64,000 nt of DNA, from positions 1 to 64,000 of the forward strand of contig CALULJ010000003.1 of assembly GCA_944321445.1 (NCBI GenBank). Direction: 5' to 3'. Both the position numbers and the translations under genes were made by a program. The DNA comes from an uncultured Collinsella sp. GTDB taxonomy: Bacteria; Actinomycetota; Coriobacteriia; Coriobacteriales; Coriobacteriaceae. Shown in pieces: positions 10,039 to 20,731 of the stretch. Below the pieces are notes generated by a model. That model was not told where the DNA came from. It saw nothing but the letters and a program-made list of their open reading frames with translations, and ran no database searches. The first letter of the stretch is position 1. The number at the start of each line of letters is the position of its first letter.

Positions 10039-10869
10039 CTAGCGCGGATCCTCCTCGAGCCATTCGATAGCCAGGTCGAGCCAGCGCGCAACATGGGGAT
10101 CGATGTGCTCGTCATCCCCGCCGGTCTGGTCGGTGGCGAGGGATAGCCCGTGACGTCCGCGGTGGAATACATGGCAATCGAAATCGACGTCGGCGGCATC
10201 GAGCGCCTCCGCGTAACGCAGGGTATTGCGAACGGGGACGAAACCGTCTTCTGCCGTATGCCATATAAAGGTGCGCGGCGTATCCTTGTCCACCAGGTCC
10301 TGAACCGCCCAGAGCTCCTTGTCATCGCTGATCGCGCCGGCGATGACATCGTCGCCGGGCCAGCCGCACGAGAAATCGATGACGGGATAGCACAGGATCT
10401 GCGCGGACACGCTGATGTCACGCAGCGGACAATCCGCGTCGAAGGGGAAGGTCAGACGACGCGACAGCGCGGAATAGGCGGCGCACAGATGGGCGCCCGC
10501 CGAAAAGCCCGCGATAGCGATGCGGTCCTCGTCGACCGACCACGCGTCTGCGCGCTCGCGCACCAGGGCGATCGCATGAGCGAGGTCGTAGAGCGGATAC
10601 GGCAACAGCGCCTTGCCGCGCGCCGCCTGCGCATGGTCGAGCACGGTGTAGTCGAGCACGAACGCCTGGTAGCCGCGCGCAGCGAACGCGAGCGCAACGG
10701 GCTCGCCCTCGCGCTCCGAGCAGCGCTGATAGCCTCCTCCGGGACAGATCACCACGGCGGGGCGCTTACGGCCCGCCTGCACGGGGATGTTGTCCTGCGC
10801 GTACACGGTCAGCGTCGGCGTCTTGGTGCCGTAGGGCTGGCGCTCCAGCTCGATGGTCTCGATATGCAT
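10039..10869 (-). CDS. Alpha/beta hydrolase, acetyl-esterase/lipase type
   Basis: This 276-residue cytoplasmic hydrolase of the esterase/BD-FAE type has no signal peptide. The oxyanion motif PGGGY is at about residues 43-47 and the nucleophile elbow GFSAGAH near 120. A candidate acid lies in the HTAEDGFVP segment and the catalytic His in GRHGLSLA near 240. Related enzymes deacetylate xylo-oligosaccharides or small esters. It probably forms a two-gene unit with the metallopeptidase downstream. Confidence 0.85.
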   Translation of the reverse strand: MHIETIELERQPYGTKTPTLTVYAQDNIPVQAGRKRPAVVICPGGGYQRCSEREGEPVALAFAARGYQAFVLDYTVLDHAQAARGKALLPYPLYDLAHAIALVRERADAWSVDEDRIAIAGFSAGAHLCAAYSALSRRLTFPFDADCPLRDISVSAQILCYPVIDFSCGWPGDDVIAGAISDDKELWAVQDLVDKDTPRTFIWHTAEDGFVPVRNTLRYAEALDAADVDFDCHVFHRGRHGLSLATDQTGGDDEHIDPHVARWLDLAIEWLEEDPR

Positions 10870-11003: not shown

Positions 11004-11015
11004 GAACATATGTTC
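11004..11015. promoter_or_regulatory. LexA-type (SOS) box upstream of tiny-peptide locus 1
   Basis: GAACATATGTTC is a perfect 12-bp palindrome fitting the GAAC-N4-GTTC core of Gram-positive and actinobacterial LexA boxes. It lies just upstream of tandem TATGCT -10-like hexamers (11021-11031), where it would cover the -35 region. It is about 75 bases upstream of the peptide start. Confidence 0.55.
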
Positions 11016-11088
11016 GTCTGTATGCTATGCTTAACAGACCGAGCGGGCGGTGCCCTCCGAGTCCAACAGGGAGTGAGGAGGGGTCCCC

Positions 11089-11172
11089 TTGGCAAAACTC
11101 ACCGCGCTGCTCCTTGCAGCGGCGACGCTCCTTCTTGCGTTCGCGATTATTCTGGCCCTCGTAGCCAATTAA
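11089..11172 (+). CDS. Tiny hydrophobic peptide, putative type I toxin (copy 1)
   Basis: A 27-residue peptide starts at TTG 11089, five bases after the strong SD AGGAGGGG (11076-11083). After LAKLTALLLAAATLL it continues as an uninterrupted Ala/Leu/Ile helix ending in Ala-Asn, a single membrane span with one basic residue near the N-terminus. The TTG aligns exactly with the ATG of the paralogue at 19577. The leader (CCAACAGGGAG at 11063-11073), SD and downstream hairpin are conserved between both copies, so this is a real unit. Size and architecture resemble type I toxins (Fst/TisB-like). Toxicity is inferred, not seen. Confidence 0.6.
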   Translation: MAKLTALLLAAATLLLAFAIILALVAN

Positions 11173-11178
11173 TCTTCC

Positions 11179-11249
11179 GTGGGTGATGCCTCAATAAGGG
11201 AACAGCCGCCTTATTGCGGAGGCGGCTGTTCTGTGTGGGCGTTACCCAC
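11179..11249. ncRNA. Conserved two-tier hairpin downstream of peptide 1
   Basis: The outer stem GTGGGTGATGCC (11179-11190) pairs with GGCGTTACCCAC (11238-11249) using two G-U pairs. The inner stem GAACAGCCGCC (11200-11210) pairs perfectly with GGCGGCTGTTC (11221-11231). A competing hairpin CAATAAGG (11192-11199) / CCTTATTG (11209-11216) excludes the inner stem. The same outer and inner stems recur at 19666-19729 with pairing-preserving substitutions. No T-tract follows, so it is more than a simple terminator. Confidence 0.6.
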
Positions 11250-11287
11250 CAAACCCTAATCCGCAGGATGGCTTAAAACCTTCTGTT

Positions 11288-11325
11288 CGTACTGAGTATA
11301 CCCCGTCGGCATCCCTGTTTGCCAA
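11288..11325 (-). promoter_or_regulatory. Putative antisense promoter of tiny-peptide locus 1
   Basis: Read on the minus strand, TGGCAA (11319-11324) and TATACT (11295-11300) are separated by 18 bases. The block around them is conserved at 19777-19806. Transcription would start near 11288 and run through the hairpin toward the 3' end of the peptide gene, making a convergent antisense RNA. Confidence 0.5.
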
Positions 11326-11593
11326 GGGTATTTCAGGGTGACGGGCGGCGCGCGGAAGGGAGCCCCTCCCCGTGCGTCGCCCCGATCTGGGAGCGCACTG
11401 ACCCAGATGCTCATCTGGATTCTGGCAAGCGTGTGCCCCTCTTCTCCTTCCATGCCCGACGCGCATCGCCTGTCGTATCATGGAAGGGTTAACAGCCCGC
11501 GCGCTGAAGGTACCGGCAGGACGCCCCACGCCCTGTGGCAGCCGCCGCCCGCGGAAAGACAACGACCGGATTCGCACAGGAAGGCAGGAATCT

Positions 11594-14500
11594 ATGGTCT
11601 CTCGCATCTATGTGGAGAAGAAGCCCGGCTTCGACGTCGAGGCATCCCAGCTCAAAGCCGAGCTGACGGGCATCCTCGGCATCACCGGCCTTGAGGGCTT
11701 GCGCCTTTTCAACCGCTATGACGTCGAAGGCGCGGACGAGGAGTTGTTCGCCCGCTGCACGCCTGTGGTGTTCTCGGAGCCCCAGGTGGACGTCACGTAC
11801 GACGAGCTGCCCGACGTACCCGGTGCGGTCGTGTTCGCTGTCGAGTTCCTGCCAGGACAGTTCGACCAGCGCGCCGACTCCGCAAGCGAGTGCATCCAGC
11901 TCATCTCCCAGGGCGAGCGCCCCACCGTGCGCTCCGCCAAGGTGTATATCCTCACCGGCGACCTCTCGGATGCCGATGTGGACGCCATCAAGCATTACGT
12001 GGTGAACCCGGTCGAGGCGCGCATCGCCAGCCTCGATAAGCCCGAGACGCTCACCACCGAGATCCCCGACCCCGAGCCGGTCGAGGTGCTCAACGGCTTC
12101 CGCGAGCTCACCTCCGAGGAACTCGCCGCCTTCATCGCCGAGCGCGGCTTGGCCATGGACGAGGCGGACATCGCGTTTTGCCAGCAGTACTTCCGCGATG
12201 AGGGGCGCGACCCCACCATCACCGAGATCCGTGTGATCGACACCTACTGGTCCGACCACTGCCGCCACACCACCTTCGGCACGGTGCTCACCGACATCAC
12301 GATCGACGACGCCGTGGTGCAGGCCGCCTTCGACCGCTACATGGAGATCCGCCACGAGCTCGGTCGCGACGAGAAGCCCGTCTGCCTCATGGACATGGGC
12401 ACTATCGGCGCCAAGTACCTCAAGAAGACCGGTCAACTCAAGAACCTCGATGAGTCCGAAGAGATCAACGCCTGCACGGTCAAGGTCACCGTCGACGTGG
12501 ACGGCGAGGACCAGGACTGGCTGTTCCTGTTCAAGAACGAAACCCACAACCACCCCACCGAGATCGAGCCGTTCGGCGGCGCCGCCACCTGCATCGGCGG
12601 CGCCATCCGCGACCCGCTGTCTGGCCGCAGCTACGTGTACCAGGCCATGCGCGTGACCGGCGCTGCCGACCCGACCGTCCCCGTGTCCGAGACGCTTGCC
12701 GGCAAGCTGCCGCAGCGCAAGCTCGTGACCACCGCGGCCGCCGGCTATTCGAGCTACGGCAACCAGATCGGTCTCGCGACCGGTCAGGTCTCCGAGCTGT
12801 ACCACCCGGGCTACGTTGCCAAGCGCATGGAGATCGGTGCCGTCGTGGGCGCCACGCCCGCCGACCACGTGCGCCGCGAGTGCCCCGCACCCGGCGACAA
12901 GATCATCCTGCTCGGCGGCCGCACCGGCCGCGACGGCATCGGCGGTGCCACCGGTTCGTCCAAGGCTCACAACGTCGAGTCCATCGAGAAGGACGGCGCC
13001 GAGGTCCAGAAGGGCAACGCCCCCATCGAGCGCAAGCTGCAGCGCCTGTTCCGCCGCGGCGACGCCTGCCGCCTCATCAAGCGCTGCAACGACTTCGGCG
13101 CGGGCGGCGTGTCCGTGGCCGTGGGCGAGCTCGCTGACGGCCTGTACATCGACCTCGACCAGGTAACCAAGAAGTACGAGGGCCTCGACGGCACCGAGCT
13201 CGCCATCTCCGAGTCGCAGGAGCGCATGGCCGTGGCCGTGGCCGAAGATGACGTCGACGAGTTCATGGGCTATGCCGCCGAGGAGAACCTCGAGGCTACC
13301 GTCATCGCCGAGGTCACCCATGAGCCGCGCGTCCGCATGGCATGGCAGGGTGTGGCCATCGTCGACCTCACCCGTGAGTTCTTGGCATCCAACGGCGCGC
13401 CCAAGCATCAGGCCGCGCACGTGGAGGCGCGCTCCGTGTGGCAGCCCGCATGGAAGGGCACGACGCTCGCCGAGCGCATGGCGAACCTCGTGACCGACCT
13501 CAACGTGTGCTCCAACAAGGGTCTCTCCGAGCGCTTCGACTCCACCATCGGCGCGGCGACCGTGCTCATGCCGTTCGGAGGCAAGACGCAGCTCACGCCC
13601 GCCGAGGCCATGGTCGCCAAGTTCCCCGTGGACGGCGAGACCACCACGGCCTCCGCGATGGCTTGGGGCTTCAACCCCTTCCTCATGGAGAAAGACCAGT
13701 TCGCAGGCGCGTACCTGTCGGTCGTCGAGTCCGTGGCCAAGCTCGTTGCCGCCGGCTTTGCGCACGAGGGCGCCTACCTCACCTTCCAAGAGTATTTCGA
13801 GCGCCTGCGCACCGAGCCCGAACGCTGGGGCAAGCCCGTCGCCGCGGTGCTGGGCGCACTGATGGCCCAGGTCGACCTGGGTATTGGCGCCATCGGCGGC
13901 AAGGACTCCATGTCCGGTTCGTTCGAGGATCTCGACGTGCCGCCCACGCTCGTCTCGTTCGCCGTAGCCGTGGGCAAGGCGTCCGGCGCCGTGTCGCCCG
14001 AGTTCAAGGGCATCACGCATCGCGTCGTGCGCATCGCTCCTGCCACCTACGGCGAGGACTGGCGCCCCGATGTGGCACAGCTGCTCGACGTCTTCACGCT
14101 CGTCGAGAAGCTCACCGCATCCGGCGCAGCGCTCGCCATCTCCACGCCCGGCTACGGCGGCACCGCCGAGGCCCTGTTCAAGATGAGCCTGGGCAACCAG
14201 ATCGGCCTGGAGCTCGCCGAGGATGTCGATGTCGATAGCCTCTTCGAGCCCATGTACGGCAGCTTCGTGGTCGAACTTTCCGACGATGCCGACGCGGTGC
14301 TCGAGGGCGCGCCCGAGGGCCTTGTCATCGAGCCGCTCGGCACCACTGTCGAGGCCTATGTGCTCGACACCGCCGACGAGACCATCGATCTCACCGAGCT
14401 GCAGGAGGCCTGGGAGAATGCTCTTGAGAGCGTGTTCCCCTACCGCACGCCCGCTGGCACCGAGCTGCCCGCTGTGGAGCCGGTCACCTTCACCGCTGAG

Positions 14501-15331
14501 GCGCCGCACGTCTACACCGGCGAGAAGTTCGCGCGCCCGCGCGTGATCATCCCCGTGTTCCCGGGCAACAACTGCGAGTACGACTCCGCCCGCGCATTCC
14601 GTGCCGCAGGCGCCGTGGCCGGCACCTTCGTGATCAACAACCTCACGCCCGAGGCAGTCGCCGAGAGCACCCATGAGCTGGCGCGCCGCATCCGCGAGAG
14701 CCAGATCGTCATGATCCCCGGCGGCTTCTCCGGCGGCGACGAGCCCGACGGCTCCGCGAAGTTCATCACGGCGTTTTTCCGCGCCCCCGAGGTCACCGAG
14801 GCCGTTCGCGACCTGCTGCAGAACCGCGATGGCCTTATGCTCGGCATCTGCAACGGCTTCCAGGCGCTCGTGAAGCTCGGCCTCGTGCCCTACGGCGACA
14901 TCGTCGACGCCACGCCGGATGCCCCCACGCTGACCTTCAACACCATCGGCCGTCACCAGAGCCGCCTGGTGCGCACGCGCGTGGCGAGCAGCCTGTCCCC
15001 GTGGCTTTCCGCCTGCACCCCGGGCGACATCTACACCGTGGCCATCAGCCACGGCGAGGGCCGTTTCGTGGCCAACGACGACGTGCTCGCGAAACTCATT
15101 ACGGGCGGCCAGATCGCTACGCAGTATGTGGATGCGAACGGCACGCCGTCCATGGACCTCGATGTGAACCCCAACGGCTCCGTTGCCGCCATCGAGGGCA
15201 TCACCTCCCCCGACGGCCGCGTCTTCGGCAAGATGGGCCATGTCGAGCGCCGCGGCGAGGGCTTGTACGCCAACGTCCCGGGCAACAAGTTCATGCCGAT
15301 CTTCGAGAGCGGCGTGGCGTACTTCGCGTAA
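11594..15331 (+). CDS. purL: Phosphoribosylformylglycinamidine synthase, fused PurL-PurQ form
   Basis: This enzyme converts FGAR, ATP and glutamine to FGAM, step four of purine synthesis. At 1245 residues it is the large single-chain form. The N-terminal part is followed by the synthetase core, with DTYWSDHCRHTTF near 215 and ETHNHPTEIEPFGGAATCIG near 315. The C-terminal glutaminase begins near 980 and contains GNNCEYDSARAF, the nucleophile Cys in MLGICNGFQALVKLG, and SHGEGRF. The ATG at 11594 has AGGAAGGCAGGA upstream. The long open frame on the opposite strand is a codon-bias shadow. Confidence 0.95.
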   Translation: MVSRIYVEKKPGFDVEASQLKAELTGILGITGLEGLRLFNRYDVEGADEELFARCTPVVFSEPQVDVTYDELPDVPGAVVFAVEFLPGQFDQRADSASECIQLISQGERPTVRSAKVYILTGDLSDADVDAIKHYVVNPVEARIASLDKPETLTTEIPDPEPVEVLNGFRELTSEELAAFIAERGLAMDEADIAFCQQYFRDEGRDPTITEIRVIDTYWSDHCRHTTFGTVLTDITIDDAVVQAAFDRYMEIRHELGRDEKPVCLMDMGTIGAKYLKKTGQLKNLDESEEINACTVKVTVDVDGEDQDWLFLFKNETHNHPTEIEPFGGAATCIGGAIRDPLSGRSYVYQAMRVTGAADPTVPVSETLAGKLPQRKLVTTAAAGYSSYGNQIGLATGQVSELYHPGYVAKRMEIGAVVGATPADHVRRECPAPGDKIILLGGRTGRDGIGGATGSSKAHNVESIEKDGAEVQKGNAPIERKLQRLFRRGDACRLIKRCNDFGAGGVSVAVGELADGLYIDLDQVTKKYEGLDGTELAISESQERMAVAVAEDDVDEFMGYAAEENLEATVIAEVTHEPRVRMAWQGVAIVDLTREFLASNGAPKHQAAHVEARSVWQPAWKGTTLAERMANLVTDLNVCSNKGLSERFDSTIGAATVLMPFGGKTQLTPAEAMVAKFPVDGETTTASAMAWGFNPFLMEKDQFAGAYLSVVESVAKLVAAGFAHEGAYLTFQEYFERLRTEPERWGKPVAAVLGALMAQVDLGIGAIGGKDSMSGSFEDLDVPPTLVSFAVAVGKASGAVSPEFKGITHRVVRIAPATYGEDWRPDVAQLLDVFTLVEKLTASGAALAISTPGYGGTAEALFKMSLGNQIGLELAEDVDVDSLFEPMYGSFVVELSDDADAVLEGAPEGLVIEPLGTTVEAYVLDTADETIDLTELQEAWENALESVFPYRTPAGTELPAVEPVTFTAEAPHVYTGEKFARPRVIIPVFPGNNCEYDSARAFRAAGAVAGTFVINNLTPEAVAESTHELARRIRESQIVMIPGGFSGGDEPDGSAKFITAFFRAPEVTEAVRDLLQNRDGLMLGICNGFQALVKLGLVPYGDIVDATPDAPTLTFNTIGRHQSRLVRTRVASSLSPWLSACTPGDIYTVAISHGEGRFVANDDVLAKLITGGQIATQYVDANGTPSMDLDVNPNGSVAAIEGITSPDGRVFGKMGHVERRGEGLYANVPGNKFMPIFESGVAYFA

Positions 15332-17963: not shown

Positions 17964-19430
17964 TCACAGCAGCTGGTACTCTCGGTTCCTGCTCGTTGCG
18001 GGGGCGGTCGCTTTGACCACTCCGCGAGCAATAAGGTCGTTCACGCGGCGGCGCGCCTGGCTAACAGACATGCCGCTTTTCTCCGCAAGCTCGCGAATGG
18101 GCATTTGACCATACTTTCGAAGCGCCGCCTCAACGGCAATCTCGCCCCTGGTCGTCGCCGAGGTGCGGCCATCATCCTCGTGCGGGCGGCGCAAGATCAC
18201 CTTGAAGTGGTCGATCGCGGGATAGAACTCCGGCGGCTCCAGGCCGTTTTCCATCATCTCCGCCATCATGAGCGGGATCCCGGAGCCATTGCCCTCAGCA
18301 GGTGATCCCGCCCCGCTTGGCAGCGGGATAAGTGACATCAGCCTCATGACCGTAGCGTTGCGGCAGCACGACCGACCGTCTGCCAAATCTGCTCGAGACT
18401 TCCCCCAAAGCCCGCCCGGATTGGTGATCTCAACACGATCGTTAAAGACATCTACGGCGACCGCTTCGCCATCGAAATACTCGCTATAGCTGCGATGAAG
18501 GAGGGCGTTGGTCACGGCCTCTCGCAAAACAACCTCGGGTATTTCCAACTCGTCAACCCTGCCGAGCCCACGCACCACCGACCGGCGCCTCAAGCTCTTT
18601 GCAACAGCCGTGACGGTATCCTCGATCATTTCGCCCAGCATGCCCTCGCAGATGGACCGATCACGGAATCGCAATTCCCCTGCAACGCCCTTTGCGGTCC
18701 CCGGATGAACCGCCACGTCTACGTGCAGCTTTGGGAAAAACTGCTGAGGATACGCTCCCGCAACCAACAGGCCCGCACGGATCACCCGCCCTTGGGGATC
18801 CGTGAAATTGAGCCGCTTGAGCCGCTCTGAGTCATCCTTTGTGCCGCGCAGAGACCGCGGCGTCGTCAGCAATGCCCGCGCAAATGCCGCCTTGCACACC
18901 GCCTCATCCAGGTCCGCAATAGAGGCGCCAGCGACCGGCTCGCGATCAGACCGATCGACAACCGTTGCGGATTGTATCGCGTAAAGCTCATGCGCCGATA
19001 GCCGCACATCTTTGTCGTCCACACGCTTGTAGCTCCCTCCCTGCACGCCGCGAGCTGTGATATAGCAGGGCTTTTGGCCAGCAGCAAGCTCGTGGATGCG
19101 GACCAGGAGCACCGCGCGCCCATCATATGGCACTCGTTCAATATGGTATTCAGGGGGACTCGTTAAAACACCTGCGGCCCCACCGTCTCCCATGCCGGAT
19201 ATGAATTGATCACAAATCCGGTCGATCTGGAAATCTGCAACGCGTGCGAAGCCCTCTTTCTCACTCACACCAAGCAGCAGCGTTCCGCCGTCTGTATTGG
19301 CAAAAGCGCTCACCGTCTCCCACACATCTTTGGACAGATCGTGCGCGCACGCTTTGGCCTCGTAGAACGCGTCGTCGCGACCCTGTAAACGAAGCAGGCC
19401 GATTATCTTGTCGATAGAAATGGTATCCAT
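17964..19430 (-). CDS. AlbA_2/Schlafen-like DNA-binding, ATPase-like transcriptional regulator
   Basis: This 488-residue protein has a three-part build. An N-terminal Schlafen/AlbA_2 domain shows FYEAKACAHDLSKD and VSAFANTDGGTLLLGV (about 20-55). A GHKL-type region follows near 295-350, with EAVTNALLHRSYSE and VEITNPGGLWG. The C-terminus is a winged helix (MPIRELAEKSGMSVSQARRRV). Such proteins are usually transcriptional regulators and are common in accessory and defence islands. The ATG at 19430 lies next to repeated half-sites that may be its own operator. The gene is divergent from tiny-peptide locus 2. Confidence 0.8.
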   Translation of the reverse strand: MDTISIDKIIGLLRLQGRDDAFYEAKACAHDLSKDVWETVSAFANTDGGTLLLGVSEKEGFARVADFQIDRICDQFISGMGDGGAAGVLTSPPEYHIERVPYDGRAVLLVRIHELAAGQKPCYITARGVQGGSYKRVDDKDVRLSAHELYAIQSATVVDRSDREPVAGASIADLDEAVCKAAFARALLTTPRSLRGTKDDSERLKRLNFTDPQGRVIRAGLLVAGAYPQQFFPKLHVDVAVHPGTAKGVAGELRFRDRSICEGMLGEMIEDTVTAVAKSLRRRSVVRGLGRVDELEIPEVVLREAVTNALLHRSYSEYFDGEAVAVDVFNDRVEITNPGGLWGKSRADLADGRSCCRNATVMRLMSLIPLPSGAGSPAEGNGSGIPLMMAEMMENGLEPPEFYPAIDHFKVILRRPHEDDGRTSATTRGEIAVEAALRKYGQMPIRELAEKSGMSVSQARRRVNDLIARGVVKATAPATSRNREYQLL

Positions 19431-19433
19431 ACG

Positions 19434-19500
19434 TCACTCACAATCTCATGTCTCTGTTAGTGACAATTGTAAGTGATAACTCTGTTTCTGTTAGTGAGAA
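19434..19500. promoter_or_regulatory. Repeated half-sites in the divergent promoter region
   Basis: Read on the minus strand, TCACTAACAGA occurs twice, with TCACTTACA between them, and an inverted TGAGTGA lies near the regulator start. The sites lie between the AlbA-like regulator and tiny-peptide locus 2. They are plausible operators for autoregulation and possibly for the peptide locus. Confidence 0.4.
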
Positions 19501-19576
19501 TAGACAGGATGCAGGTTATTTCAACGTCAACGATAACGGGTACCGCGAGGCCAACAGGGAGCATTGGAGGGGTCTC

Positions 19577-19657
19577 ATGGCCAGGCTTACCGCGCTGCCG
19601 CTCGCAGCAGCGACGCTTCTCGCGTTCGTCGTTATCCTGATTCTCGTAATCGGTTAA
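19577..19657 (+). CDS. Tiny hydrophobic peptide, putative type I toxin (copy 2)
   Basis: A 26-residue peptide starts at ATG 19577, four bases after GGAGGGG (19566-19572). It begins MARLTALPLAAATLLAFVV and ends in an Ile/Leu/Val run with a final Gly, a single membrane span with one Arg. It is paralogous to the peptide at 11089. The leader CCAACAGGGAG (19551-19561), SD, downstream hairpin and opposing promoter are shared. Unlike copy 1, no LexA-like palindrome is seen; the upstream region carries the repeated half-sites of the neighbouring regulator instead. Function is inferred from architecture. Confidence 0.6.
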   Translation: MARLTALPLAAATLLAFVVILILVIG

Positions 19658-19665
19658 TGATAGGC

Positions 19666-19729
19666 GGGTGATGCCTGCGTAAGAGAGCAGCCGCCTTAGC
19701 GAGACGGCTGTTCAGCGTGGGTATCACCC
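19666..19729. ncRNA. Conserved two-tier hairpin downstream of peptide 2
   Basis: The outer stem GGGTGATGCC (19666-19675) pairs with GGTATCACCC (19720-19729). The inner stem GAGCAGCCG (19685-19693) pairs with CGGCTGTTC (19705-19713). Compared with copy 1, every changed base in the stems keeps a Watson-Crick or G-U pair, which supports a selected RNA structure. Confidence 0.6.
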
Positions 19730-19769
19730 ACCAACACCTTATCCACAGGAGGGCTCTAAACCTTCTGCT

Positions 19770-19806
19770 CGTACTGAATATACCCCAACGGCGTCCCTGT
19801 TTGCCA
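19770..19806 (-). promoter_or_regulatory. Putative antisense promoter of tiny-peptide locus 2
   Basis: On the minus strand TGGCAA (19801-19806) and TATATT (19777-19782) are 18 bases apart, matching the arrangement at 11295-11324. The predicted RNA would run back across the hairpin toward the peptide gene. The rest of the interval up to 20091 contains a GGCCGG/CCGGCC hairpin near 19840 and no gene. Confidence 0.5.
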
Positions 19807-20091
19807 CGGGGTTTTTCGGGGCACGGGGTGCCCGGCGGCCGGCAAAACCGGCCAGAAGGCGCCCTAAGTCGTGGATGAGTTAATCGTAACCCCTACGTTG
19901 ATTTACAGGTCGAGCGAGACGCTTCCAAGCTTGGACAAAGCTCGCCGTGCATTTATTCGTCAGAGAGCTCAGAAGACGGATCATAGGAACCATACGCTCC
20001 AAAAGCTTAGCTGTACTTGAGGAGCATAGGACCCATGGCCAGGCAGCGCATCTACCATGACGGGCATAATCTGCATTAAGGAGGTGGCGTC

Positions 20092-20382
20092 GTGCACCAA
20101 ATTTCGACCATTCGCGACGCGGCAGGCCGTACCGCGCAAAAACACGGCCTCGCGAAGGTGACGTTGTTCGGAAGCTATGCGCGAGGAGACGCCGACGATA
20201 CGTCCGATGTCCACCTCGTAATCGAAACGTCGGCGCCGTTGGGATTTGCACGAGGCGCGATCTATAACGAGCTTGAGCAGGAGCTCGGATGCCCAGTCGA
20301 CCTCATTTTCGGTGCTTCCAATCTCTACCCCTTCATTCGCGAGGCATACGACAGAGAGGGTGTGATTCTCTATGAGGCGTGA
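20092..20382 (+). CDS. MntA-like nucleotidyltransferase antitoxin with altered active site
   Basis: This 96-residue minimal nucleotidyltransferase is of the kind that pairs with HEPN toxins and blocks them by AMPylation. The motif FGSYARGDADDTSDVHLVIE (about 27-46) matches GSxARG...SDxD except that the second catalytic Asp is His (codon CAC, one base from GAC). The later Asp in CPVDLIF is kept. The start is GTG at 20092 behind AAGGAGGTGGC. It overlaps the HEPN gene by 11 bases, the usual operon order. The catalytic change suggests loss of transferase activity. Confidence 0.75.
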   Translation: MHQISTIRDAAGRTAQKHGLAKVTLFGSYARGDADDTSDVHLVIETSAPLGFARGAIYNELEQELGCPVDLIFGASNLYPFIREAYDREGVILYEA

Positions 20383-20731
20383 GCGTCAGGTTCCTGAAAA
20401 CGCAAGGACATTCATCATTGAGGTGGTTATCCGCAACGCCGAGTTGATTAATCGCAGGATTGAAGAAAACTGCATCACGAAGGATGCCTACGCGCGTTCC
20501 ACCGATTATCAAGATTTACTGACCATGCCAATGCTCAGAATCTGCGAGCTCGTGAGCGAGTATACGAGCGTATTTGAAGATATCGATCCCGAATATCCTT
20601 GGCGCGATGTCGCAAAGATGCGAAGCAAGATTGCGCGCCCCCGTGGCGGATTCGACTTTGACTTCGCATGGGAGGCAATTCAAGTTGATTTGCCGGATCT
20701 AGTCGCCGTCTGCAAGCGGGCAATATGCTGA
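20372..20731 (+). CDS. HepT-like HEPN protein lacking the expected catalytic His
   Basis: This 119-residue all-helical protein aligns with HEPN/HepT (DUF86-like) toxins. The usual C-terminal RNase motif R-x4-H-x-Y before the conserved Trp and DLP is recognisable as MRSKIARPRGGFDFDFAW...VDLP. The His position is Arg (CGC, one transition from CAC) and the Tyr normally AMPylated by MntA is also replaced. It is probably not an active RNase. It shares an operon with the MntA-like gene through an 11-base overlap. Confidence 0.7.
   Translation: MRRERQVPENARTFIIEVVIRNAELINRRIEENCITKDAYARSTDYQDLLTMPMLRICELVSEYTSVFEDIDPEYPWRDVAKMRSKIARPRGGFDFDFAWEAIQVDLPDLVAVCKRAIC

Follow-up and report, generated by a model that had tools for sequence, protein, structure and literature searches.

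Introduction

In the TxpA/RatA and BsrG/SR4 systems of Bacillus subtilis, a convergent antisense RNA is complementary to the 3′ part of the mRNA for a membrane peptide (PMC8167048). The AapA/IsoA mRNA of Helicobacter pylori is closed after termination by a long-distance 5′-3′ interaction and carries Shine-Dalgarno (SD)-masking hairpins (PMC6733600), and Fst/par of pAD1 (Enterococcus faecalis) has convergent promoters, an SD-masking 5′ stem-loop, a terminator loop that serves as a pairing site and an SD-like repeat at both ends (PMC7472228). In the TimP/TimR system of enterobacteria, a tertiary RNA pairing (pseudoknot) activates translation of the toxin (PMC11228461). A 2025 paper presents MsoT1/MsoA1 of the cyanobacterium Microcystis as a candidate from outside the classical phyla and states that type I toxin-antitoxin systems such as these were previously known from Proteobacteria, Firmicutes and Tenericutes alone (PMC12390103). 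Here we describe a locus at positions 11004-11335 of a 64,000-nt stretch of DNA from an uncultured Collinsella sp. (contig CALULJ010000003.1; the whole stretch is called the window), which we predict to be a type I-like toxin-antitoxin system induced by DNA damage through the SOS response. Our search of the open-licence literature returned nothing relevant on type I systems in Collinsella, Coriobacteriia or Actinomycetota.

Results

The locus belongs to a family with one architecture and about 60 distinct copies, found in Collinsella, Enorma and Olsenella (Coriobacteriaceae and Atopobiaceae; Actinomycetota). A whole-genome search detected five copies in this genome, at 11004-11335 and at four more sites, one of which is also in the window (19546-19830). 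The unit shares 72-83% identity with copies elsewhere in its own genome and in many species of the genus, the best match (E = 8e-91) being to a second copy in its own genome; such similarity is well above chance expectation. The LexA box, leader, SD, hairpin and -10 element are kept across genera. The initial annotation, made from the letters of the window, had proposed a covariance-model search across Coriobacteriia and had set conservation of the peptide frame and hairpin in relatives as a test. Both are kept, and R1, a covariance model for the 3′ half, matched 17 of the 45 genomes of the genus and, at E ≤ 0.01, 35 of the 298 genomes of the class, two of these 35 (families f2 and f12) being marginal partial matches. 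Within a phylum-wide sample of 396, the 3′ half was confined to two families of one order. Among named genomes, exact-pattern scanning gave matches in Collinsella stercoris, intestinalis, tanakaei, phocaeensis, provencensis, massiliensis and ihumii among others, as well as Enorma massiliensis and an Olsenella; the few matches in distant organisms are about as many as chance would give for such a pattern in that collection.

The annotation did not recognize the peptide or the RNA as a described family. Likewise, no match was obtained for the locus RNA in Rfam at gathering or relaxed thresholds, or for the peptides in Pfam, NCBIfam and PHROGs. The locus appears to be type I-like in kind, but by sequence it falls under none of the type I systems compared here. 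Plasmids, phages and viral contigs gave no match at the sensitivity used, so there is no sign of phage or plasmid carriage, and flanking sequences are common to small groups of copies only, which leaves no conserved partner gene. The annotation had seen neither the multi-copy family nor the covarying contact between mRNA ends described below.

The predicted 27-residue, single-span peptide starting at TTG corresponds to an open reading frame (ORF) of 27 codons (Table 1). About 39 copies encode a peptide of 25-29 amino acids (33 in one copy) with the consensus M-x-K-L-T-x-L-L-L-A-A-A-x-L..., starting at the same place with ATG, TTG or GTG. The BLOSUM62 score per changed codon was +1.27 in frame, compared with about -1.1 in the other frames and -0.45 (standard deviation 0.35) in column shuffles, and the second codon position is the least variable in the peptide frame. 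This test was performed on 40 sequences, one of which (L091) was started in the wrong frame, which weakens rather than helps it. Hydropathy over 19 residues was 2.97 for the window peptide and 2.7-3.3 over six examples. We conclude that a real gene encodes a small, single-span hydrophobic peptide, as in type I systems.

The LexA-type palindrome of the annotation is present as an exact GAAC-N4-GTTC, a motif that occurs at 24 sites in the 2.36-Mb genome. Two of these are located 55-95 bp upstream of a match to the LexA DNA-binding domain (C5:76109-76300, minus strand), with GAACATATGTTT as a third site beside them; another is about 110-120 bp upstream of a RecA match (C5:66274), and four of the 24 are in copies of this family. 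At the corresponding position ahead of the -10, relatives carry GAAC....GTTC, exact or with one mismatch. This suggests a LexA operator at the toxin promoter, the motif expected of SOS-induced type I toxins of the TisB, DinQ and SymE class. The two overlapping TATGCT sequences downstream, annotated as tandem -10 motifs, do exist but are better read as a single extended -10, since TGN-TATNNT is common in relatives; transcription would start near 11038. Promoter calls rest on conservation, because simple promoter and terminator scans gave no score at 11004-11335.

The strong SD noted initially is predicted to be masked by the leader. In the minimum free energy fold of the inferred transcript, SD:CCCTCC pairing has a probability of 0.97-1.0, and the RNAalifold consensus of 24 copies contains the same pairing. 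Covariation is uninformative for this mask because CCCTCC is nearly invariant. Evidence from covariation was obtained for a kissing contact between the loop of the SD-masking hairpin, AACAGGGA, and the loop of the sense terminator, TCCCTGTT. In relatives the two loops change together, as in CGCAGGGA/TCCCTGCG, TGCAGGGG/CCCCTGCA, TGCAGGAA/TTCCTGCA, AACGGGA/TCCCGTT, AGCAAGG/CCTTGCT and GCAGGC/GCCTGC. Over 27 distinct combinations, 85.6% of cells are paired in register versus 34-47% when one strand is slid by 1-3 positions, and there are 36 double-change cells versus 2-8 in the slid controls. None of 5000 shuffles reached the observed paired fraction or double-change count. The three non-anchoring positions alone are 85% paired versus 60%, again with 0 of 5000 shuffles. 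These shuffles ignore the relatedness of the copies, which the slid controls retain. In some relatives the terminator stems are longer and end in TTTTT tails.

Because the 3′ partner is located upstream of where the antisense RNA would start, the kissing contact would join parts of a single sense RNA or link two of them. Prediction and covariation together indicate that mRNA structure withholds the ribosome-binding site, as in type I systems, and that the ends of the mRNA interact over a long distance as in AapA/IsoA, although the predicted interaction is loop-loop and not anti-SD:SD. By analogy with AapA/IsoA and hok, the contact would lock translation; an activating role, as in timP, would also be compatible with these observations. 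A perfect inverted repeat, CCCTTGGCAAA/TTTGCCAAGGG (11086-11096/11318-11328), was considered as a pair that might mask the start codon. It is not kept in relatives, and the covarying loops were preferred.

On the opposite strand, the annotation had placed a promoter, TGGCAA-N18-TATACT, aimed back at the peptide. Its TATACT (minus strand, 11300-11295) is kept in relatives, whereas the TGGCAA "-35" is not. The TATACT is retained in copies that lack the 3′ arm of the terminator (L083, L085 and L012), and conservation extends from it to the first antisense hairpin, across a segment that the sense RNA leaves unpaired. We predict a convergent antisense RNA that probably overlaps only the 3′ untranslated region (UTR) of the toxin mRNA, similar to TxpA/RatA or BsrG/SR4. 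At the position of its first hairpin (11264-11285), nearly all relatives carry CAGGAGGG, an SD-like repeat. The long hairpin claimed initially was found, with arms at 11200-11211/11220-11231, and the antisense RNA may terminate at its inner stem, near 11189. The 3′ hairpins fold well on both strands, and the folding strand is ambiguous. Duplexes predicted between the antisense RNA and the 3′ UTR of different copies in one genome range from -133 to -192 kcal/mol, compared with -255 to -270 kcal/mol for cognate pairs; these strong non-cognate duplexes make cross-talk between copies possible.

Halves of the unit were counted in the same 298 class genomes, at E ≤ 8e-7 for 3′ halves (model R1) and E ≤ 1.1e-6 for 5′ halves (model R2). 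No adjacent 5′ half was detected for 19 of the 54 3′ halves, while only one of the 36 5′ halves (L219, G138:C13:174353-174474) lacked a 3′ half. In L219 the peptide is out of frame and has no membrane span, the antisense hairpins are absent and the antisense -10 is changed. Two of the 19 solitary 3′ halves, including the window copy at 19546, keep the peptide but not the promoter and LexA box. This asymmetry is as predicted for a toxin-antitoxin system, where a toxin would not be kept without its antitoxin.

Table 1. Positions of the observed and predicted features in the window
Feature	Position	Strand	Remarks
LexA (SOS) box	11004..11015	+	GAACATATGTTC; exact GAAC-N4-GTTC at the -35 position; kept in promoter-bearing relatives
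Extended -10 of toxin promoter	11023..11031	+	TGC-TATGCT; TGN-TATNNT common in family alignment, TA...T invariant
Leader anti-SD	11053..11058	+	CCCTCC; predicted to pair with SD at 11077-11082; nearly invariant
5′ kissing loop	11065..11072	+	AACAGGGA; loop of SD-masking hairpin; complementary to 11312-11319 and covarying with it (27 distinct copies)
Shine-Dalgarno	11077..11082	+	GGAGGG; invariant or nearly so
Single-span membrane peptide, 27 amino acids	11089..11172	+	MAKLTALLLAAATLLLAFAIILALVAN; TTG start, TAA stop; frame kept, coding selection
Long 3′ hairpin	11180..11248		TGGGTGATGCC/GGGCGTTACCCA outer, GAACAGCCGCC/GGCGGCTGTTC inner
Inferred antisense RNA, ~100 nt	11189..11289	-	complementary to toxin 3′ UTR only; conserved -10 and start region
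Predicted first hairpin of antisense RNA	11264..11285		CAGGATGG/CCTTCTG
Antisense -10	11295..11300	-	TATACT; this or a close variant in most copies
Sense terminator hairpin	11296..11334	+	ATACCC..GGCA(TCCCTGTT)TGCC..GGGTAT-TTC; loop 11312-11319 is the 3′ kissing partner
Second window copy	19546..19830	+	peptide MARLTALPLAAATLLAFVVILILVIG at 19577-19657; kissing pair 19553-19560/19794-19801; without LexA box or leader

The unit at 11004-11335 is flanked by a divergent alpha/beta-hydrolase gene (10039-10869, minus strand) and by a purL-type formylglycinamidine-synthase gene (within ORF 11480-15331, plus strand). The second window copy has an intact peptide and an antisense -10-like TATATT, and lacks the promoter and leader hairpin; it can be read as a silenced or re-promoted copy. 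It adjoins a Schlafen/AlbA_2-type gene (17964-19430, minus strand) and a protein toxin-antitoxin pair, in which an MNT-type nucleotidyltransferase gene (20092-20382; Pfam NTP_transf_2) adjoins a HepT-like gene (20372-20731). The nucleotidyltransferase motif, GSYARG...SDVHL, has His in place of the usual second Asp of DxD. Just upstream of the start of the Schlafen/AlbA_2-type gene (19446-19500) is a repeated CTGTTAGTGA motif, possibly an operator. Another copy in this genome (L031:1577-2500) adjoins a restriction-like gene with an Mrr_N domain. In genome G081, several copies, whole and 3′-only, are clustered within a few kilobases at G081:C10:32008-36478 (L134) and G081:C23:26302-28853 (L135).

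Discussion

We put at roughly 75% the probability that the family is a type I toxin-antitoxin system induced by the SOS response and that it works largely in the way set out below. The reading of the initial annotation, a DNA-damage-induced membrane peptide restrained by antisense RNA, is supported by the LexA motif at lexA and recA, coding selection, the conserved hairpin and antisense -10, and the asymmetry of the halves. Sequence comparison supplies the family, the LexA motif, the coding frame, the covarying kissing pair, the conserved antisense -10 and the solitary-half asymmetry, and from these we infer transcription, LexA binding, the effect of the lock, antisense action and toxicity. 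In the mechanism that we propose, LexA would hold the toxin promoter shut until DNA damage leads to an mRNA of ~300 nt. Its leader would mask the SD by CCCTCC:GGAGGG pairing while the hairpin loop kisses the terminator loop, so that the full-length transcript is probably locked against translation. A convergent antisense RNA of ~100 nt, started from a -10 inside the sense terminator, would be complementary to the 3′ UTR and would probably act like RatA and SR4, by forming a duplex that is then cleaved. The membrane peptide of 25-29 amino acids would be made only once the mRNA outruns the antisense RNA and has itself been unlocked by processing at its 3′ or 5′ end. It would then probably depolarize or disturb the membrane, slowing growth during damage.

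Several observations weigh against this mechanism. A conserved -35 for the antisense promoter was sought among the relatives and not found, and the U-tract of the antisense terminator, GAACAGCCGCC/GGCGGCTGTTC-CC(G/T)TTTT, is poor, especially in W1. On the sense strand, GTATACCC is also part of the terminator stem, and its conservation cannot be credited to the promoter alone. The kissing pair is based on covariation among related copies. Several solitary 3′ halves retain a piece of the toxin C-terminus, and no intact toxin copy was detected in about eight genomes with solitary 3′ halves; remnants decaying after toxin loss are a fair alternative explanation for them. Further, separate models, unequal in sensitivity, were used to detect the two halves.

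The lock could also lie wholly in cis, in the SD mask and kissing loop, with the antisense -10 as a by-product of the terminator stem and no antitoxin RNA at all. The strong covariation of the kissing pair would be explained, as would the lack of a conserved antisense -35 and the use of GTATACCC as the terminator's 5′ arm. However, this arm is conserved far beyond the needs of pairing, the TATACT is kept in the three copies that have lost the 3′ arm, the segment between the -10 and the first hairpin is conserved where the sense RNA is unpaired, and solitary 3′ halves exist. We consider control wholly in cis unlikely. It is also improbable, in our view, that the product is an SOS-induced small regulatory membrane peptide and not a poison, for example a division brake like SidA of Caulobacter, under tight RNA control with no true antitoxin RNA. 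Several known SOS peptides are division inhibitors, LexA control and a single membrane span fit such a role, and the antisense RNA is itself inferred. Nevertheless, the antisense -10 and start region are conserved, solitary 3′ halves are retained, whereas a peptide lacking its 3′ half is almost never found, and a multi-copy, patchy distribution (17 of 45 genus genomes) is unlike that of a division checkpoint gene. A dispersed non-coding repeat (REP-like or a mobile miniature element) with an accidental ORF would account for multiple dispersed copies, some truncated and some in short-spaced arrays, but is very improbable given the clear coding selection, the conserved regulatory site, the RNA covariation and alignments in which no transposon ends are apparent.

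If the toxin-antitoxin reading is correct, type I systems would extend to Actinomycetota through a well-conserved, multi-copy, LexA-controlled family of common gut Coriobacteria, and SOS-driven membrane peptides would exist beyond the enterobacterial examples. This could bear on DNA-damage and antibiotic tolerance of gut commensals. Some 60 natural variants with a covarying loop-loop contact also offer material for studying how transcribed toxin mRNAs stay silent.

Similar to TisB/IstR-1 of Escherichia coli, the locus is predicted to combine a LexA-controlled single-span membrane peptide (~29 amino acids in TisB), an mRNA that is untranslated as first made, and an RNA antitoxin. IstR is transcribed divergently and targets a 5′ standby site, whereas the antisense RNA predicted here is convergent, covers the 3′ UTR and has its start within the terminator of the sense transcript; the systems also come from different phyla and are unrelated in sequence (no Rfam, Pfam or NCBIfam match). 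TxpA/RatA and BsrG/SR4 have a convergent antisense RNA on the 3′ part of the mRNA, as predicted here, but their peptides are longer, and to our knowledge neither LexA control nor a 5′-3′ kissing pair has been described for them. Like the system predicted here, AapA/IsoA is multi-copy and has a small hydrophobic toxin with 5′-3′ closure of the mRNA. There, however, the 3′ end itself carries an anti-SD, whereas the predicted contact joins the 3′ loop to that of the SD-masking hairpin; there is no sequence kinship by Pfam, NCBIfam or Rfam, and we know of no LexA box in AapA/IsoA. MsoT1/MsoA1 differs in its constitutive predicted promoters and belongs to another phylum. In TimP/TimR, tertiary RNA pairing also governs translation, but here it more likely locks the mRNA. 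With Fst, the locus is predicted to share convergent promoters, an SD-masking 5′ stem-loop, terminator-loop pairing and SD-like repeats. Fst has a shared terminator whose loop is the pairing site for the antisense RNA, whereas here the terminator loop would pair with the 5′ loop of its own mRNA. In contrast to Fst/Ldr, there is no shared bidirectional terminator: the sense terminator (11296-11334) is placed upstream of where the antisense RNA would begin, and this RNA would end at the other hairpin. Fst/Ldr differ further in that no Fst peptide family was matched in Pfam or NCBIfam and that SOS control is predicted here. By analogy, then, the locus seems closest to TisB/IstR in its control, to TxpA/RatA and BsrG/SR4 in the placement of its antisense RNA, to AapA/IsoA in the 5′-3′ closure of its mRNA, and to Fst par in its overall design.
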